This document shows positions 17,466 to 25,718 of a stretch of DNA of 64,000 bases, piece by piece; the first letter of the stretch is position 1, and every line of letters starts with the position of its first letter. This DNA comes from Flavobacterium indicum GPTSA100-9 = DSM 17447. GTDB taxonomy: Bacteria; Bacteroidota; Bacteroidia; Flavobacteriales; Flavobacteriaceae. Made by a program: the position numbers and the translations under genes. The notes beneath the pieces are model-generated. The model saw nothing but the letters and a program-made list of their open reading frames with translations, had not been told where the DNA came from and ran no database searches. Location of the stretch: assembly GCF_000455605.1 (NCBI RefSeq), contig NC_017025.1, positions 558,001-622,000 of the forward strand. Direction: 5' to 3'.

Positions 17466-17499
17466 GGAAAAAGCTAAAGAAGGGTTTATCTGCTTTAGC
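17466..17499 (-). terminator. Terminator hairpin in the metK leader, overlapping the SAM-II core
   Basis: On the minus strand GCTAAAG (17499-17493) pairs with CTTTAGC (17479-17473) and is followed by TTTTTCC (17472-17466). The upstream arm is the conserved GCUAAAG segment of the SAM-II motif, so aptamer and terminator use the same bases and should be mutually exclusive or coupled. Confidence 0.65.
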
Positions 17500-17537
17500 A
17501 TTTTTTATAGAGGTTGCAATCAGTCAAATTTTTCCTC
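17493..17537 (-). ncRNA. SAM-II-like riboswitch upstream of metK
   Basis: Read on the minus strand: GAGG, then AAAAATTTGACTGATTGCAA, then CCTC, TATAAAAAAT, GCTAAAG. GAGG/CCTC form P1. The loop segment ATTTGAC..TTGCAA and the 3' strand with AAAT and GCTAAAG match what I remember of the SAM-II (metA) consensus, a compact H-type pseudoknot known from Alphaproteobacteria and Bacteroidetes. The position 75-120 nt before metK supports the call. No covariance model was run. Confidence 0.8.
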
Positions 17538-17550
17538 TGTTAAATTTTGG

Positions 17551-18679: not shown

Positions 18680-18715
18680 GTATCTATAGTTTATGTTCTG
18701 GTGTTAAGTATTTTA

Positions 18716-18805
18716 ATTAGAAAAATAATCTATAAAACAATCTATAAATAACAAAATTTAGAAAAATAAACTAAAAAATATAATTATTTAGAAAAATATT
18801 CTAAA
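18716..18805 (+). promoter_or_regulatory. Tandem palindromic operator sites TTTAG-N9-CTAAA
   Basis: Two 19-bp palindromic sites with identical arms, TTTAG-N9-CTAAA at 18757-18775 and 18787-18805, start exactly 30 bp apart. A degenerate third copy, ATTAG-N9-CTATA, is at 18716-18734. The spacer starts AAAAATA in all three. The last site overlaps the -7 box at 18802-18809, the classic position for a repressor of the Met/Cys operon. The cognate regulator is not identifiable from the window. Confidence 0.6.
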
Positions 18806-18809
18806 TTTG
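18802..18809 (+). promoter_or_regulatory. Putative -7 promoter box of the metY-metX-thrA operon
   Basis: TAAATTTG, an exact TAnnTTTG match about 48 bp upstream of the leader peptide start. It overlaps the right arm of the second TTTAG-N9-CTAAA site. No TTTG is seen at -33. Confidence 0.6.
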
Positions 18810-18856
18810 CATCAGATTTAATCAAGTAACAAAAAAATATTCTAAAGGTAACAGGT

Positions 18857-18946
18857 ATGACAACTTTCATTTTACATACAACGATGTTTATCATGACAAT
18901 GTGCATGTGTTGTTTTTATGTCTATTACCAAAAGATTTATACTTAA
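18857..18946 (+). CDS. Met/Cys-rich leader peptide of the methionine biosynthesis operon
   Basis: A 29-codon ORF, MTTFILHTTMFIMTMC followed by MCCFYVYYQKIYT. It holds five Met codons (1, 10, 13, 15, 17) and three Cys codons (16, 18, 19), with all three Cys and four of the Met packed into codons 10-19. Its last codons, TAC CAA AAG, form the antiterminator arm. Codon content, placement and the following competing hairpins are those of a classical transcription attenuator. Ribosome stalling on scarce Met-tRNA or Cys-tRNA would favour read-through into metY. Confidence 0.85.
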   Translation: MTTFILHTTMFIMTMCMCCFYVYYQKIYT

Positions 18947-19003
18947 TCAAGTTATATGCTATAATCAAGTAACCCTTTTGGTAAATATCAAAAGGGTTTT
19001 TTT
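18925..19003 (+). promoter_or_regulatory. Transcription attenuator (antiterminator/terminator) before metY
   Basis: Terminator: AACCCTTTTG (18971-18980) pairs with CAAAAGGGTT (18989-18998), then a T-run to 19003. Antiterminator: TTACCAAAAG (18925-18934, inside the leader ORF) is the exact complement of CTTTTGGTAA (18975-18984), which includes the terminator's left arm. A ribosome reaching the leader stop codon covers 18925-18934 and lets the terminator form; a ribosome stalled at the Met/Cys cluster leaves it free. Confidence 0.85.
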
Positions 19004-19035
19004 ATTGACAATTTCTAACTATTAAATTTATAAAA

Positions 19036-20328
19036 ATGAGTACACAAAAATTTGCAACACAAGCATTACACGCTGGTTATGATGTAACTAAAAATGCAGG
19101 AACCCGTGCAGTTCCAATTTATCAAACAACATCTTATGTTTTTAATAATGCTGATCATGCAGCTAATCTGTTTAACTTGTCTGAAAGTGGATATATTTAT
19201 ACAAGACTGAATAACCCAACAAATGATGTGTTGGAACAACGTTTAGCTGCGTTAGAAGGCGGAATTGGTGCAGTCGTTACAGCATCAGGGACAGCTGCAA
19301 TTGCTACTACATTATTGGTGTTGTTAAAGGCTGGAGATCATATAGTTGCTTCTAGTAGCTTATACGGGGGGACTTATAATTTATTAAGTGTTACATTACC
19401 TAGATTGGGAATAACAACTACTTTCGTAGATCCTTCAAATCCAGAAAATTTTACAAAAGCAGCACAAGAAAATACTCGTGCCTTTTTTGTAGAAAGTTTG
19501 GGTAATCCAAAATTGGATGTACTAGACTTAAAAGGAATTGCTCAAGAAGCAAAAGCATTTCGCGTTCCATTTATAGTTGATAATACTGTAGCCACACCTT
19601 ATTTATTAAATCCAATAGAACATGGAGCAAATATTGTAATTCATTCATTGACTAAATATATTTCAGGAAATGGAACTTCTTTAGGAGGTGTAATTATTGA
19701 TGCTGGAAATTTTGAATGGGATAATGGAAAATTTCCTGAGTTTACGGAGCCTTCAGCGGGTTATCATGGTTTAAAATATTATGAAGTATTGGGAGCGGCT
19801 TCTTTTATTGCTAAGGTGAGAATTGAAGGCTTGCGTGATTTTGGTGCTGCTTTAAGTCCGTTTAATGCTTTTCAAATCATTCAAGGGCTAGAAACATTGG
19901 AAATTCGTATAAAAAAACACAGTGAAAATGCTTTGGCACTTGCGCAATGGTTAGAAGAACAAGAAGAAGTTGCTTGGGTGAATTATCCAGGTTTAACTAC
20001 CTCTAAATATAAACAATTGGCGGATGTTTATTTACCAAATGGACAAAGTGGTATCGTTACTTTTGGTTTAAAAGGTGGTTTTGAAGCGGCTAAATTAGTA
20101 GCTAATGAAACAAAACTGTTTTCGTTATTAGCAAATATTGGTGATACTAAATCATTAATTATTCATCCGGCAAGTACTACACACCAACAATTAAATGAAT
20201 CGGAACAAAAAGCTACAGGGGTTACCGCAGATTTAATTCGTTTATCGGTAGGGTTAGAAGATATAGAAGATATTAAGGCTGATTTACAAGGGGTTTTTGA
20301 AAAATTACCAGTATCGGTGTTAAATTAA
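19036..20328 (+). CDS. metY: O-acetylhomoserine sulfhydrylase (aminocarboxypropyltransferase)
   Basis: A 430-residue PLP enzyme of the Cys/Met metabolism family, with the length and C-terminal half of the MetY (OAH sulfhydrylase) group. Motifs: 'AVPIYQTTSYVFNNADHAANLF', 'YTRLNNPTNDVLEQRLAALEGG', 'VVTASGTAAIATTLL', the PLP-lysine 'IVIHSLTKYISGNGTSLGGVI' and 'IHPASTTHQQLNESEQKATGVTADLIRLSVGLED'. It condenses O-acetylhomoserine with sulfide to give homocysteine. First structural gene after the Met/Cys attenuator. metX, which makes its substrate, follows. Confidence 0.94.
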   Translation: MSTQKFATQALHAGYDVTKNAGTRAVPIYQTTSYVFNNADHAANLFNLSESGYIYTRLNNPTNDVLEQRLAALEGGIGAVVTASGTAAIATTLLVLLKAGDHIVASSSLYGGTYNLLSVTLPRLGITTTFVDPSNPENFTKAAQENTRAFFVESLGNPKLDVLDLKGIAQEAKAFRVPFIVDNTVATPYLLNPIEHGANIVIHSLTKYISGNGTSLGGVIIDAGNFEWDNGKFPEFTEPSAGYHGLKYYEVLGAASFIAKVRIEGLRDFGAALSPFNAFQIIQGLETLEIRIKKHSENALALAQWLEEQEEVAWVNYPGLTTSKYKQLADVYLPNGQSGIVTFGLKGGFEAAKLVANETKLFSLLANIGDTKSLIIHPASTTHQQLNESEQKATGVTADLIRLSVGLEDIEDIKADLQGVFEKLPVSVLN

Positions 20329-20394: not shown

Positions 20395-21372
20395 ATGAAT
20401 AAATTACAATTTATAAGTATTTCAAATTTTTTATTGCAATGTGGTGATCTCGAAAAGTTTGAATTGAGTTATCAAACTTTTGGGCAACCTCTAGGAATGG
20501 CTCCTATTGTATTAGTGAATCATGCGCTAACAGGTAACTCGAATGTGTCGGGAGAAAATGGCTGGTGGAATAATTTAGTTGGGGAAAATAAAGTGATTGA
20601 TTTAAGGAAATATTCAGTCATCGCTTTTAATATACCGGGCAATGGTTTTGATGGTAAAAATGCTAACTTAATTCAAAATTATAAAAAGGTAACCACTAAA
20701 GATATTGCTGCTATTTTTTGGAAAGGACTCGAGTATTTGAAGATAAATCAATTGTATGCTGTAATTGGAGGGAGCTTGGGAGGTGCTATTGCTTGGGAAA
20801 TGGCGTATATAAAACCGAAGTCAATACAATATATAATACCAATCGCAACAAACTGGAAAGCATCAGATTGGATTATCGGTAATGTTTTAGTGCAAGATGC
20901 AATTTTGAATAATTCCATAAATCCAATTCACGATGCACGATTACATGCCATGCTTTTGTACAGAACCCCGCAGTCTTTGACACTAAAGTTTGAAGGAAAA
21001 AAACAAGAGAAACAAGATGTTTTTAAAGTTGAATCTTGGTTGCTTCATCATGGCGAAAAATTGCAAAATAGGTTTCAATTACAAGCTTATAAATTAATGA
21101 ATCATTTATTAAAAACAATTGGAAGTTTTTATTCAGAAATTGATTGGATTAACATTTTGAAAAATTCAAATATTAAAATTTGTCAAATTGCCATAAATTC
21201 TGATTATTTTTTTACATCCGATTCTAATTTAGATATGCATTTTTTATTAAGTAAACATACTAATAACATAACGTATAATGAAATAAATTCAATTCACGGG
21301 CACGATGCTTTTTTAATTGAATATGAAAAATTAAACGACATACTTAAACCAATATTTACAACAAACAACTAA
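20395..21372 (+). CDS. metX: Homoserine O-acetyltransferase-like alpha/beta hydrolase
   Basis: A 325-residue alpha/beta-hydrolase fold protein of the MetX family. Visible: 'FELSYQTFGQPLGMAPIVLVNHALTGNS', nucleophile elbow 'AVIGGSLGGAIAWEMAY' (MetX-typical GGSxGG with the catalytic Ser), an Asp in 'QIAINSDYFFTSDS' and the His of 'SIHGHDAFLIEYE'. It would acetylate homoserine with acetyl-CoA to feed MetY. At 325 residues it is shorter than typical MetX (~350-380), consistent with a reduced lid. Position between metY and thrA strongly supports the role. Confidence 0.88.
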   Translation: MNKLQFISISNFLLQCGDLEKFELSYQTFGQPLGMAPIVLVNHALTGNSNVSGENGWWNNLVGENKVIDLRKYSVIAFNIPGNGFDGKNANLIQNYKKVTTKDIAAIFWKGLEYLKINQLYAVIGGSLGGAIAWEMAYIKPKSIQYIIPIATNWKASDWIIGNVLVQDAILNNSINPIHDARLHAMLLYRTPQSLTLKFEGKKQEKQDVFKVESWLLHHGEKLQNRFQLQAYKLMNHLLKTIGSFYSEIDWINILKNSNIKICQIAINSDYFFTSDSNLDMHFLLSKHTNNITYNEINSIHGHDAFLIEYEKLNDILKPIFTTNN

Positions 21373-21383
21373 AAACAAACAAC

Positions 21384-23792
21384 ATGAAAATTTTAAAATT
21401 CGGAGGAAAATCTCTTGCAAATGGGGAAGGGATAAATCAAGTCATACAAATTATTGCTAATCGTTATTATAAAGATGAAGAGGTGGCAGTAGTGGTTTCA
21501 GCACGAGGCAATGCAACAGACGAATTATTAGCAATTTTAAATTTTGCTCAGCAAGGATTTAATTATGAAGACCTATTTCATGATTTTAAAGTGTATCAAT
21601 CTGAAGGAGTTGCAGCAGATTTTTTTGAAGCAGAATTTAATACACTAACTAAATTATTTGAAGGGGTAAAATTATTGAGTGATTTTAGTGATAAAATAAA
21701 AGATCAAGTTTTAGCCTTTGGTGAACTTATAGCGGCAAAATATTTGACTTATAAACTAAGTGAAAAAGGTCTGTCAGCAGTTTTTGTTGATGCCAGAAAA
21801 TTAATAGTAACTGATTCTAATTTTGGAAATGCACAACCCATCGATTCTATTTCTAAGAAAAATGTTCAAAAGTTTTTTGAAAACAGTACTGCTGTTTCTG
21901 TTGTTACAGGTTTTATTGGTGCTACTGCTACTGGTGAAACAACTACTTTAGGTAGAAATGGTAGTAATTATACAGCATCGTTATTGGCTAATTATCTTAA
22001 TGCAGCTGAATTTCAGAACTTTACTCATGTAGACGGTATTTATACTGCAAATCCTGAATTGGTTGAAGATGCCAAAAAAATTGAACGCTTGTCTTTCAAT
22101 GAAGCAAATGAATTGGCCAATTTTGGTGCTACAATATTACATGCGAAAACGATTATTCCTTTAGTGGAAAAAAACATTCCTTTACGAATTTTAAACACCT
22201 TTAATCCGGAAAATGATGGAACATTAATCACGGCAGAACAAACAGATGAGGGAATAAAATCGTTGTCGGTTTTAGATCATGTTTCTTTAATTAATTTAGA
22301 AGGTCGCGGGTTGTTGGGTAAAACAGGTGTTGATGCTCGAATCTTTAAGGTTATGGCTGACAATGGTATTAGTGTAAGTATCATTTCTCAAGGTTCTTCT
22401 GAACGAGGTATAGGGTTGGTTGTAAATACTGATAGAGCTTCGGAAGCTTTAGTGGGACTGGAGAAAGAATTTGAAAATGATTTCTATACTCGAGATGTAA
22501 ACCGAATTTCTGTAGATGATAATATTTCGGTAATTTCAATTATAGGTCAAGATTTAAGTACGTTTCACAAACCGTATACTGCTTTAATCCGAAATAAAAT
22601 TGTTCCAATTTTGTTTAACAATACAACTACAGGTAGAAATATAAGTTTGGTTATTAAAAAGAACGATTTAAAAAGAGCTTTAAACGTAATACATGGTGAA
22701 ATTTTTGGCGTAACTAAAAAAATTAATATCGCTGTGTTTGGTCATGGTTTAGTTGGAGGTACACTTATTAATCAAATTCTTTCGTCTTCAAAAAATATTG
22801 AATTTAAAAAAGGGATTAAATTGAATGTTTTTGCTGTAGCGAATTCATCTAAATTAATTATCAATAAACGTGGGATTTCTGAAAATTGGAAAACTGAAAT
22901 TGAGCAACAAGGTCAAAAATATTCTGTAAAGGAGATCATTCAATATGCGAAAAACAATCATCTCGAAAATTTAATCGCTGTAGACAATACGGCAAGTAAA
23001 GATTTTGTGGAAAATTATATTGAATTAATTGAAAACAGTTTTGATGTGGTTTCTTCTAACAAAGTGGCCAATACGTTGAGTTATGATTTCTATAAAAAAC
23101 TGCGTAAAGCACTTGCTAAAAATCAAAAAAATTATTTATACGAAACGAATGTAGGTGCAGGCTTGCCTTTAATTGATACGATTAAATTGTTGCATCTTTC
23201 TGGTGAAAACATCACCAAAATTAAAGGTGTTTTCTCGGGTTCGTTAAGCTTTATTTTTAATAACTATTCACTTGAAAACAGGCCGTTTAGTGAAGTGCTG
23301 AAAGATGCAATTGCGAAGGGCTATACAGAACCAGATCCTCGTGAAGATTTATGTGGAAATGATGTGGCTCGAAAATTATTAATTTTAGCTAGAGAGTTGG
23401 ATTTACAAAATGAATTTGATGAAATAAAAATTCAAAATTTAATTCCAGAATCCTTACGAACACTAAGTACAAGAGAATTTTTGGTTAGTTTAGATAAATT
23501 AGATGATTATTATTCTGAAATAAAACAAAGTCAAGAAAAAGGAAATGTACTTCGTTATATTGGTGAATTGTCTGGAGATTTACAACAAGATAAAGGGGAT
23601 TTAGAAGTGAAATTGGTTTCCGTGCCTGAGAGTTCAGCTTTGGGTCAATTGAAAGGGTCTGATTCTATTTTTGAAATTTATACTGAATCCTATGGTGAAC
23701 GTCCAATTGTTATTCAAGGTGCTGGTGCTGGTGCATCGGTGACGGCAAGAGGTGTTTTTGGAGATATACTGCGCTTGGCAGATAAAGGGTAA
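21384..23792 (+). CDS. thrA: Bifunctional aspartokinase / homoserine dehydrogenase
   Basis: An 802-residue fusion. Residues ~1-290 are aspartokinase ('MKILKFGGKSLANGEG', 'VTGFIGATATGETTTLGRNGSNYTASLLA', 'EANELANFGATILHAKTIIPL'). Residues ~300-445 are two ACT domains ('GLLGKTGVDARIFKVMADNGISVSIISQGSSERGIGLVV'). Residues ~450-802 are homoserine dehydrogenase ('INIAVFGHGLVGGTLINQIL', 'VSSNKVANTLSYDFYKKLR', 'YETNVGAGLPLIDTIKLL', 'GAGAGASVTARGVFGDILRLAD'). It supplies homoserine to metX and to threonine synthesis. In this operon the flow is to methionine; control is by the attenuator and probably by the ACT domains. Confidence 0.96.
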   Translation: MKILKFGGKSLANGEGINQVIQIIANRYYKDEEVAVVVSARGNATDELLAILNFAQQGFNYEDLFHDFKVYQSEGVAADFFEAEFNTLTKLFEGVKLLSDFSDKIKDQVLAFGELIAAKYLTYKLSEKGLSAVFVDARKLIVTDSNFGNAQPIDSISKKNVQKFFENSTAVSVVTGFIGATATGETTTLGRNGSNYTASLLANYLNAAEFQNFTHVDGIYTANPELVEDAKKIERLSFNEANELANFGATILHAKTIIPLVEKNIPLRILNTFNPENDGTLITAEQTDEGIKSLSVLDHVSLINLEGRGLLGKTGVDARIFKVMADNGISVSIISQGSSERGIGLVVNTDRASEALVGLEKEFENDFYTRDVNRISVDDNISVISIIGQDLSTFHKPYTALIRNKIVPILFNNTTTGRNISLVIKKNDLKRALNVIHGEIFGVTKKINIAVFGHGLVGGTLINQILSSSKNIEFKKGIKLNVFAVANSSKLIINKRGISENWKTEIEQQGQKYSVKEIIQYAKNNHLENLIAVDNTASKDFVENYIELIENSFDVVSSNKVANTLSYDFYKKLRKALAKNQKNYLYETNVGAGLPLIDTIKLLHLSGENITKIKGVFSGSLSFIFNNYSLENRPFSEVLKDAIAKGYTEPDPREDLCGNDVARKLLILARELDLQNEFDEIKIQNLIPESLRTLSTREFLVSLDKLDDYYSEIKQSQEKGNVLRYIGELSGDLQQDKGDLEVKLVSVPESSALGQLKGSDSIFEIYTESYGERPIVIQGAGAGASVTARGVFGDILRLADKG

Positions 23793-25575: not shown

Positions 25576-25597
25576 CAACGTTCATACAATTAATGTT

Positions 25598-25696
25598 GTT
25601 ATCACGAAAGCTGGAGGGAATAGACCCAATGAAAGCTTAGCAACCCTATTAAATAGAAGGTGCTACATTCTATTCGCAATTTGCGAAAAAGATAAC
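25598..25696 (+). ncRNA. SAM-I (S-box) riboswitch upstream of metH
   Basis: P1 is GTTATC (25598-25603) with GATAAC (25691-25696). Core segments of the S-box are visible in order: CTGGAGGGA, ACCCAATGAAAGCTTAGCAACC, AAGGTGCTACATTC. P3 is CTATT/AATAG and P4 is TTCGCAA/TTGCGAA. P2 contains AAGCT/AGCTT. All match the family's helix order and conserved binding-core bases. It lies 63 nt before the metH start. An open frame that runs through it in phase with metH is not translated protein. Confidence 0.95.
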
Positions 25697-25718
25697 TTGA
25701 AAATTCTCTTCATTTTTC

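Follow-up and report, generated by a model that had tools for sequence, protein, structure and literature searches.

A probable ribosome-mediated attenuator reading methionine and cysteine codons before metY in Flavobacterium, at the place of the SAM-I riboswitch of related genera

The metY gene of Flavobacterium indicum GPTSA100-9 (= DSM 17447) is preceded by a short open reading frame (ORF) rich in methionine and cysteine codons and by a hairpin with a run of T residues, and the question raised by this arrangement is whether the two work together as a leader-peptide attenuator and how widely such a device is used at this gene. We analyzed the locus within a 64,000-nt stretch of contig NC_017025.1 (positions 558,001 to 622,000; "the window" below means this whole stretch). 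The first-pass annotation, made from the letters of the window, had proposed a complete attenuator that reads both sulfur amino acids and controls a metY-metX-thrA operon. Comparison with relatives strongly supports ribosome-mediated attenuation at Flavobacterium metY, and, judged from sequence comparison, the window element is real and conserved and very probably functions as an attenuator. Its features and the genes behind it are collected in Table 1.

Table 1. Features of the metY leader and downstream genes in the window
Feature	Position	Strand	Basis
Candidate Bacteroidota -7 promoter element TAAATTTG (TAnnTTTG)	18802..18809	+	
Segment 1, contains leader start codon	18847..18862	+	MFE folds
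Leader peptide ORF (predicted), module B type	18857..18946	+	sequence, shuffles, relatives
Regulatory codon cluster Met-Phe-Ile-Met-Thr-Met-Cys-Met-Cys-Cys	18884..18913	+	sequence, geometry in relatives
Segment 2, antiterminator 5' strand, TTACCAAAAG, within leader ORF	18925..18934	+	
Segments 3:4, intrinsic terminator hairpin	18971..18998	+	stem scoring, covariation, MFE
T-run (T7) of terminator	18997..19003	+	sequence
metY, O-acetylhomoserine sulfhydrylase, first gene behind attenuator	19036..20328	+	TIGR01326, above cut-off
metX-like homoserine O-acetyltransferase	20395..21372	+	best-matching models, below curated cut-off
Bifunctional aspartate kinase-homoserine dehydrogenase, thrA type	21384..23792	+	NF006959, above cut-off

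The leader ORF runs from an ATG at 18857 to a TAA at 18944-18946, and its 29 codons (MTTFILHTTMFIMTMCMCCFYVYYQKIYT) include five Met codons (counting the start) and three Cys codons, as first annotated; codons for the amino acids of the pathway are clustered in it, and an intrinsic terminator lies between it and the first gene. The hairpin and its T-run likewise stand as originally described; its length does not, since the stem at 18971-18998 scores 12 pairs rather than 10, around a 4-nt loop. The exact complementarity claimed for a 10-nt leader segment is also there: TTACCAAAAG at 18925-18934 matches CTTTTGGTAA at 18975-18984, the 3' strand of the antiterminator being the left arm and loop of the terminator. 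Neither the ORF nor the complement is likely to have arisen by chance, since only 1 of 20,000 dinucleotide shuffles of the 408-nt intergenic region contained a short ORF with at least seven internal Met and Cys codons, and only 64 of 20,000 shuffles of the leader ORF gave a complement of at least 10 nt to the left arm plus loop. The internal Met and Cys count of seven is the highest among the 488 window ORFs of 12-45 codons on both strands; the next-highest count, six, is reached by four others.

The antiterminator is the MFE structure of 18924-18987 (-12.4 kcal/mol). Once everything has been transcribed, the terminator is still the MFE structure, also when segment 2 is unoccupied, and antitermination must therefore be kinetic. 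The fully transcribed, ribosome-free leader folds modestly better than shuffles (z -1.46), and in the folding models segment 1 (18847-18862) may then pair with approximately 18919-18929; this possible 1:2 hairpin, which involves the 5' side of segment 2, did not figure in the first-pass annotation. Upstream, TAAATTTG matches TAnnTTTG, which we take to be the Bacteroidota -7 promoter type, and would place a transcription start site before the leader. In 28 of 88 loci this motif occurs in the 100 nt that precede the first leader, compared with 138 of 1800 random windows from the same upstream sequences. A known SAM riboswitch or T-box was considered for the metY leader and set aside, as no Rfam 15 covariance model matches it (none in 18700-19060 up to E = 1).

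The metY, metX and thrA genes probably share one transcript. The window genome encodes a full-length CBS-like protein (496.5 bits, below the 510 cut-off), and a search for a serine acetyltransferase found no match (E up to 1e-30), so homocysteine made by MetY may feed both methionine and cysteine in this organism. The same gene cluster carries a SAM-II riboswitch before metK (17485-17543, minus strand) and a SAM-I riboswitch before metH (25596-25698, plus strand), in agreement with the remark in the first-pass annotation that this bacterium also uses SAM riboswitches.

To place the window leader among its relatives, 150 Flavobacterium genomes were sampled, which gave 85 metY matches with E < 1e-200 from 83 genomes (two of them with two loci each). 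A module was called automatically where an ORF of 10-50 codons starts with ATG, has three or more internal Met and Cys codons and is followed by a terminator. By this criterion 79 of the 85 metY leaders contain at least one module, and the modules are of two types, A and B: both are present in 38 leaders, B only in 28, A only in 13 and neither in 6. In all 38 two-module loci A is upstream and B downstream; the window leader has module B only. Many stretches extended just 450-600 nt upstream of metY, so module A is perhaps undercounted, and among the 29 loci with at least 745 nt upstream 16 have both modules, 9 B only and 4 A only. Module A leaders have a median of 22 codons (for example MNLTICNMCCMMWKFPQRTFIA), with a terminator that is often CCTCTGC...GCAGAGG and a segment 2 that is often GCAGAGG; module B leaders have a median of 28.5 codons, a terminator arm that is usually CTTTTGG and a segment 2 that is often TTACCAAAAG or TTGCCAAAAG. 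Segment 2, as placed automatically, is poor or odd in some modules (e.g., L058, L074-L077, L081 and L083). L089 (the same locus as L063) and L177-L187 were dropped before counting.

Two of the six leaders missed by the automatic criterion (L046 and L072) have a typical leader ORF and, by eye, a weaker hairpin, and in the other four (L053, L065, L068 and L073) no module was found. These four have neither attenuator nor SAM-I riboswitch upstream of metY, and the first three resemble one another there by eye. Several leaders carry further features. Genomes G030 and G112 each have two metY copies a few kb apart (L040/L041 and L043/L044), and every copy has its own leader module pair, with differing sequences. 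An extra short Cys-rich ORF lies between module A and metY in L014 (MKIAIYNPRRCCRMCS, 18 codons), L015, L016, L019 and L035; no terminator was found behind it in these five. A small gene of about 55-70 codons, with a motif like SLLFxMYxxExExLF at its end, is found between attenuator and met gene at L191 (1970-2173) and in upstream regions such as those of L020, L022, L025 and L031; the L191 gene has 182 homologs, mostly labeled Flavobacterium, and the named ones among the matches listed are hypothetical proteins.

Covariation in the two competing helices was examined in alignments of each module. Near-identical sequences were removed from the alignments (62 to 53 for module A, 70 to 47 for module B), whose stretches were delimited by the stop codon and the terminator; segment 2 played no part in this, so the test of 2:3 covariation is not circular. 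In module A the 2:3 helix is paired in 86.0% of cells in the 53 sequences, both sides have changed in 6 of 7 pairs, and 35 cells are double-changed against 10.6 in shuffles (the shuffles, here and below, ignore kinship). In module B (47 sequences) it is paired in 88.0% of cells, with 15 double-changed cells against 5.6 and a covariation score of 0.189 against 0.106, and none of 500 shuffles equaled any of these three values; pairs changed on both sides (4 of 10) and further pair types were matched by 257 and 284 of the 500 shuffles, respectively. The 3:4 pairing holds in 92.9% of cells in A and 99.6% in B, with both-side changes in 8 of 9 and 7 of 12 pairs, figures that are biased by selection as the modules were chosen for a terminator and a Met/Cys-rich ORF. 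Both modules have a covarying antiterminator that excludes the terminator, more weakly in B, where two of five measures fall within the shuffles. A less certain, short 1:2 hairpin in module A is 71.3% paired, with 19 cells double-changed against 10.5; slid by -1, the register is 70.4% paired and scores higher.

The distance from the last Met/Cys codon to segment 2 has a median of 15 nt (quartiles 14-15) in 59 A modules and of 7 nt (quartiles 4-15.5) in 69 B modules, the looser B spacing arising because some leaders have Cys codons that abut segment 2; the placement of the stall codons is accordingly clean in A and mixed in B. Given the size of the ribosome footprint, a ribosome stalled at the last Met/Cys codon of module A would have its front edge just short of segment 2. 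The start of segment 2 precedes the end of the stop codon by a median of 21 nt in A and 12 nt in B, a distance at which a terminating ribosome is predicted to cover it. If folding stops short of the right arm, the MFE structure is the 2:3 helix for 53 of the 59 type A modules and for 67 of the 69 of type B. Met and Cys codons make up 31.7% of codons in frame compared with 10.3% and 3.5% in the other two frames, in modules that were chosen for Met and Cys.

The window element is very likely a transcription attenuator of the ribosome-mediated kind, one that reads the charging of tRNA-Met and tRNA-Cys, and its context of methionine and cysteine genes supports this reading. With both amino acids plentiful, a ribosome would reach the stop codon and cover segment 2, the 3:4 terminator would form and RNA polymerase would halt before metY. 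When either is scarce, the ribosome would stall at the cluster of Met and Cys codons that lies shortly before segment 2, leaving that segment free to pair with segment 3, and metY-metX-thrA would be transcribed for want of a terminator. In relatives with A and B in series RNA polymerase would have two gates to pass. Methionine has a difficulty as the regulatory amino acid, in that its shortage would also limit initiation, leaving the leader untranslated and favoring termination. The attenuation logic put forward in the first-pass annotation draws support from the conserved ORF, competing stems and covariation in relatives, and the absence of such conservation, which that annotation had named as grounds for giving it up, is not what the relatives display. 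The dual reading that it thought unusual is typical of the genus, at least two Cys codons being present in 100 of 104 leaders outside one group (below). The serial attenuator pairs of many relatives, and the position of the leader at the SAM-I place of other genera, were not part of that annotation.

The SAM-I riboswitch senses SAM through an aptamer, and in related genera it stands where the Flavobacterium attenuator does. Close metY homologs are present in 136 of 199 genomes drawn at the family level, and the 88 best-scoring metY loci of other genera were sampled (riboswitch strand was checked for the cmscan part of these). Their leaders contain SAM-I only in 76 cases, directly upstream of metY, an attenuator only in 9, neither in 3 (L105, L115 and L138; L105 was covered over 383 nt) and both in none (Fisher p 4e-10, not corrected for kinship). 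In Flavobacterium, SAM-I is present somewhere in 50 of 60 genomes and was found within 1 kb upstream of metY at 0 of the 61 loci in those 60 genomes. The Flavobacterium attenuator occupies the place of the SAM-I riboswitch of related genera. Counted against attenuation are the 79 of 88 other-genera loci and the four Flavobacterium loci that lack a module. In a metY tree (bootstrap unsettled, with many open forks, and with one Flavobacterium group, described next, left out) the attenuator-bearing genera outside Flavobacterium are scattered among SAM-I genera, which tentatively suggests several swaps between the two devices. Beyond the family, close metY homologs (E up to 1e-150) were few, occurring in 5 of 119 genomes order-wide and 1 of 149 class-wide; modules that a looser criterion gave in L183, L184 and L186 are left out of the counts. 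Separately, upstream of a metX/aspartokinase locus in L191, L192 and L198, A-like and B-like elements are followed by SAM-I; in L191 the small gene described above separates B from SAM-I, and L192 has a similar gene behind B.

The leaders of eight Flavobacterium genomes (L078-L085) contain as many as 11 Met codons and almost no Cys, and at least two Cys codons occur in 1 of 13 leaders of this Met-only group, against the 100 of 104 elsewhere in the genus. A search with stricter filters found no SAM-I in the eight, so that SAM-I is missing from 8 of 8 Met-only genomes versus 2 of 52 others; its absence from the group is possibly a single event. One of the eight, G072, has tandem Met-rich modules before metH (L188), where the window metH lies behind SAM-I instead. 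The metH genes of four others (L223, L224, L225 and L227) have no module of their own, and, in the three whose upstream gene was inspected by eye, metH directly follows an apparent met or thr gene; in the remaining three genomes metH gave no match at the cut-off used. A cysE homolog (E up to 1e-30) is present in 7 of 8 Met-only versus 12 of 20 other Flavobacterium genomes, which are not independent, and a full-length CBS-like protein in 2 of 8 versus 18 of 20 (none over the curated cut-off). The serine acetyltransferase and CBS pattern fits the idea that Cys codons go with homocysteine-derived cysteine, which we offer as a lead only. We lean somewhat toward a broader view, in which Flavobacterium has shifted methionine control from a SAM-sensing riboswitch to charged tRNA-Met and tRNA-Cys, read by two serial attenuators, and in which the Met-only group has completed the shift, with SAM-I gone, Cys codons nearly gone and the metH of one genome included.

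The metY leader might instead be an uncharacterized riboswitch or T-box-like element that senses SAM, methionine or tRNA directly, with the ORF incidental, as the SAM-I and SAM-II riboswitches in the same cluster and SAM-I at the same place in other genera could lead one to think. We consider this quite improbable: there is no Rfam match in 18700-19060 up to E = 1, the pairings found to be conserved are 2:3 and 3:4, which exclude each other, plus the less certain short 1:2 hairpin of module A, the Met and Cys codons are concentrated in one frame and in module A keep a fixed distance to segment 2, and the codons vary between Met plus Cys and Met only while the architecture stays constant.

Modules of the attenuator type also occur before other genes, namely metH (one genome), cysE-cysK (one) and a TonB receptor (two). 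A module is present in 1 of 21 metH leaders scanned (L208/L188, the G072 case above) and in 1 of 16 cysE leaders scanned (from 28 matches), where a Met plus Cys module A in G061 precedes cysE, cysK and a uroporphyrinogen methyltransferase gene (L193). The leader could be thought to encode a functional small peptide, for example a metal-binding one, before an ordinary terminator, since the peptides are alike in length and rich in Cys and Met; this is less probable still, as their C-termini (Pro-Gln-Arg (CCGCAGAGG), Ser-Ala-Glu and similar in A; Tyr-Gln-Lys and similar in B) track RNA complementarity to the terminator arm, with covarying changes, and methionine or cysteine genes stand behind the modules at metY, metH and cysE. 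Equally slight is the chance that leader translation acts on Rho access or on metY translation and not on intrinsic termination, as proposed for the terminator-less mycobacterial cysteine leaders (PMC1262725) and the tandem attenuators of Salmonella mgtCBR (PMC3641672), given a covarying intrinsic terminator with a T-run in 79 of 85 metY loci (in the module set, by construction).

Other matches to the module models are of various kinds. Two genomes have a module A ahead of a TonB-dependent receptor gene (L194, at 781-882, and L196; the family was tested for L194), in L194 about 3.5 kb upstream of metY. Among the matches listed for the window genome (G000), the one strong module B match is the window's own (8.4e-11; four further B matches rank below those listed), and the best module A match is weak (0.0012, L197); the latter was rejected as a module A, having a hairpin and no Met/Cys ORF. 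Of the weaker model matches in general, L195 and L201-L207 also have a hairpin and no convincing Met/Cys ORF. Leaders that resemble modules and carry codons for Cys, Trp, Met, Phe, Tyr or His (L189, L190, L199 and L200) stand before a gene of about 150 codons (for which L189, the one tested, gave no NCBIfam match) and a peptide-type ABC transporter ATPase gene (tested in L189), and are possibly attenuators that read several scarce amino acids.

Flavobacterium metY very probably has a conserved attenuator for both sulfur amino acids, in two serial copies in 38 of 85 loci. At this single gene an aptamer that senses the end product SAM and a decoder of tRNA charging replace one another in different genomes, which makes a natural set of swaps. 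The system opens tests of whether two attenuators for one signal sharpen the response, and of how attenuation through methionine codons can work when methionine shortage also limits initiation. As peptide attenuation needs coupled transcription and translation, the modules would also be comparative evidence for such coupling in Bacteroidota.

The classical leader-peptide attenuators are those of trp, his, phe, thr and ilv. Like them, the Flavobacterium leaders have a short ORF that carries the regulatory codons, 2:3 and 3:4 helices that compete, an intrinsic terminator and cognate biosynthesis genes downstream; unlike them, they read Met and Cys together, often have two modules in series and stand at the SAM-I place. 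SAM-I (RF00162) also precedes metY, in other genera, and was found in none of the metY leaders checked that bear an attenuator. A study of F. psychrophilum reports strong signs of attenuation by leader peptides in front of operons for amino-acid biosynthesis, pheA and hisG being named among the genes with conserved 5' elements; the word methionine is absent from the main text of that study, whose supplements may list a metY leader (PMC9723704). The 29-residue metL leader peptide of Streptomyces lividans contains Met and Cys and precedes the methionine import genes metNIQ; the available text calls it rich in Met and Thr, makes no mention of Cys as a signal and reports no typical Rho-independent terminator (PMC8079986). 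Mycobacterial cys operons have leader peptides with Cys runs before sulfur genes, and these, unlike the Flavobacterium modules, are described as having no conserved terminator hairpins (PMC1262725). In uORFC-8-2 of Rhodobacterales, tandem Cys codons in a uORF before cysS are followed by a terminator, and the mechanism is described as ribosome-mediated attenuation (PMC8632094); this differs from the Flavobacterium metY leader in being Cys only, cysS only, from another phylum and a single module, and the window element was not assigned to it, its context being metY in Flavobacterium and not cysS in Rhodobacterales.

The mechanism is of a known kind, and tandem attenuators too are already known, from the mgtCBR virulence and Mg2+ transport operon of Salmonella (PMC3641672). 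There two short ORFs in one leader each govern transcription of the same operon in response to two signals, ATP and proline, with effects reported as independent and additive; according to the available text, the authors regard the stem-loops as unlike intrinsic terminators and the leader as a singular example for different signals (PMC3641672). In contrast, the two Flavobacterium modules share one amino-acid signal, and each ends in an intrinsic terminator of its own. A search limited to open-access literature found no Met/Cys attenuator in Bacteroidota and no attenuator/SAM-I swap, and, as far as such searches reach, the new parts are the reading of both Met and Cys by one complete attenuator, the doubling of modules that share their amino acids, and the exchange with SAM-I.
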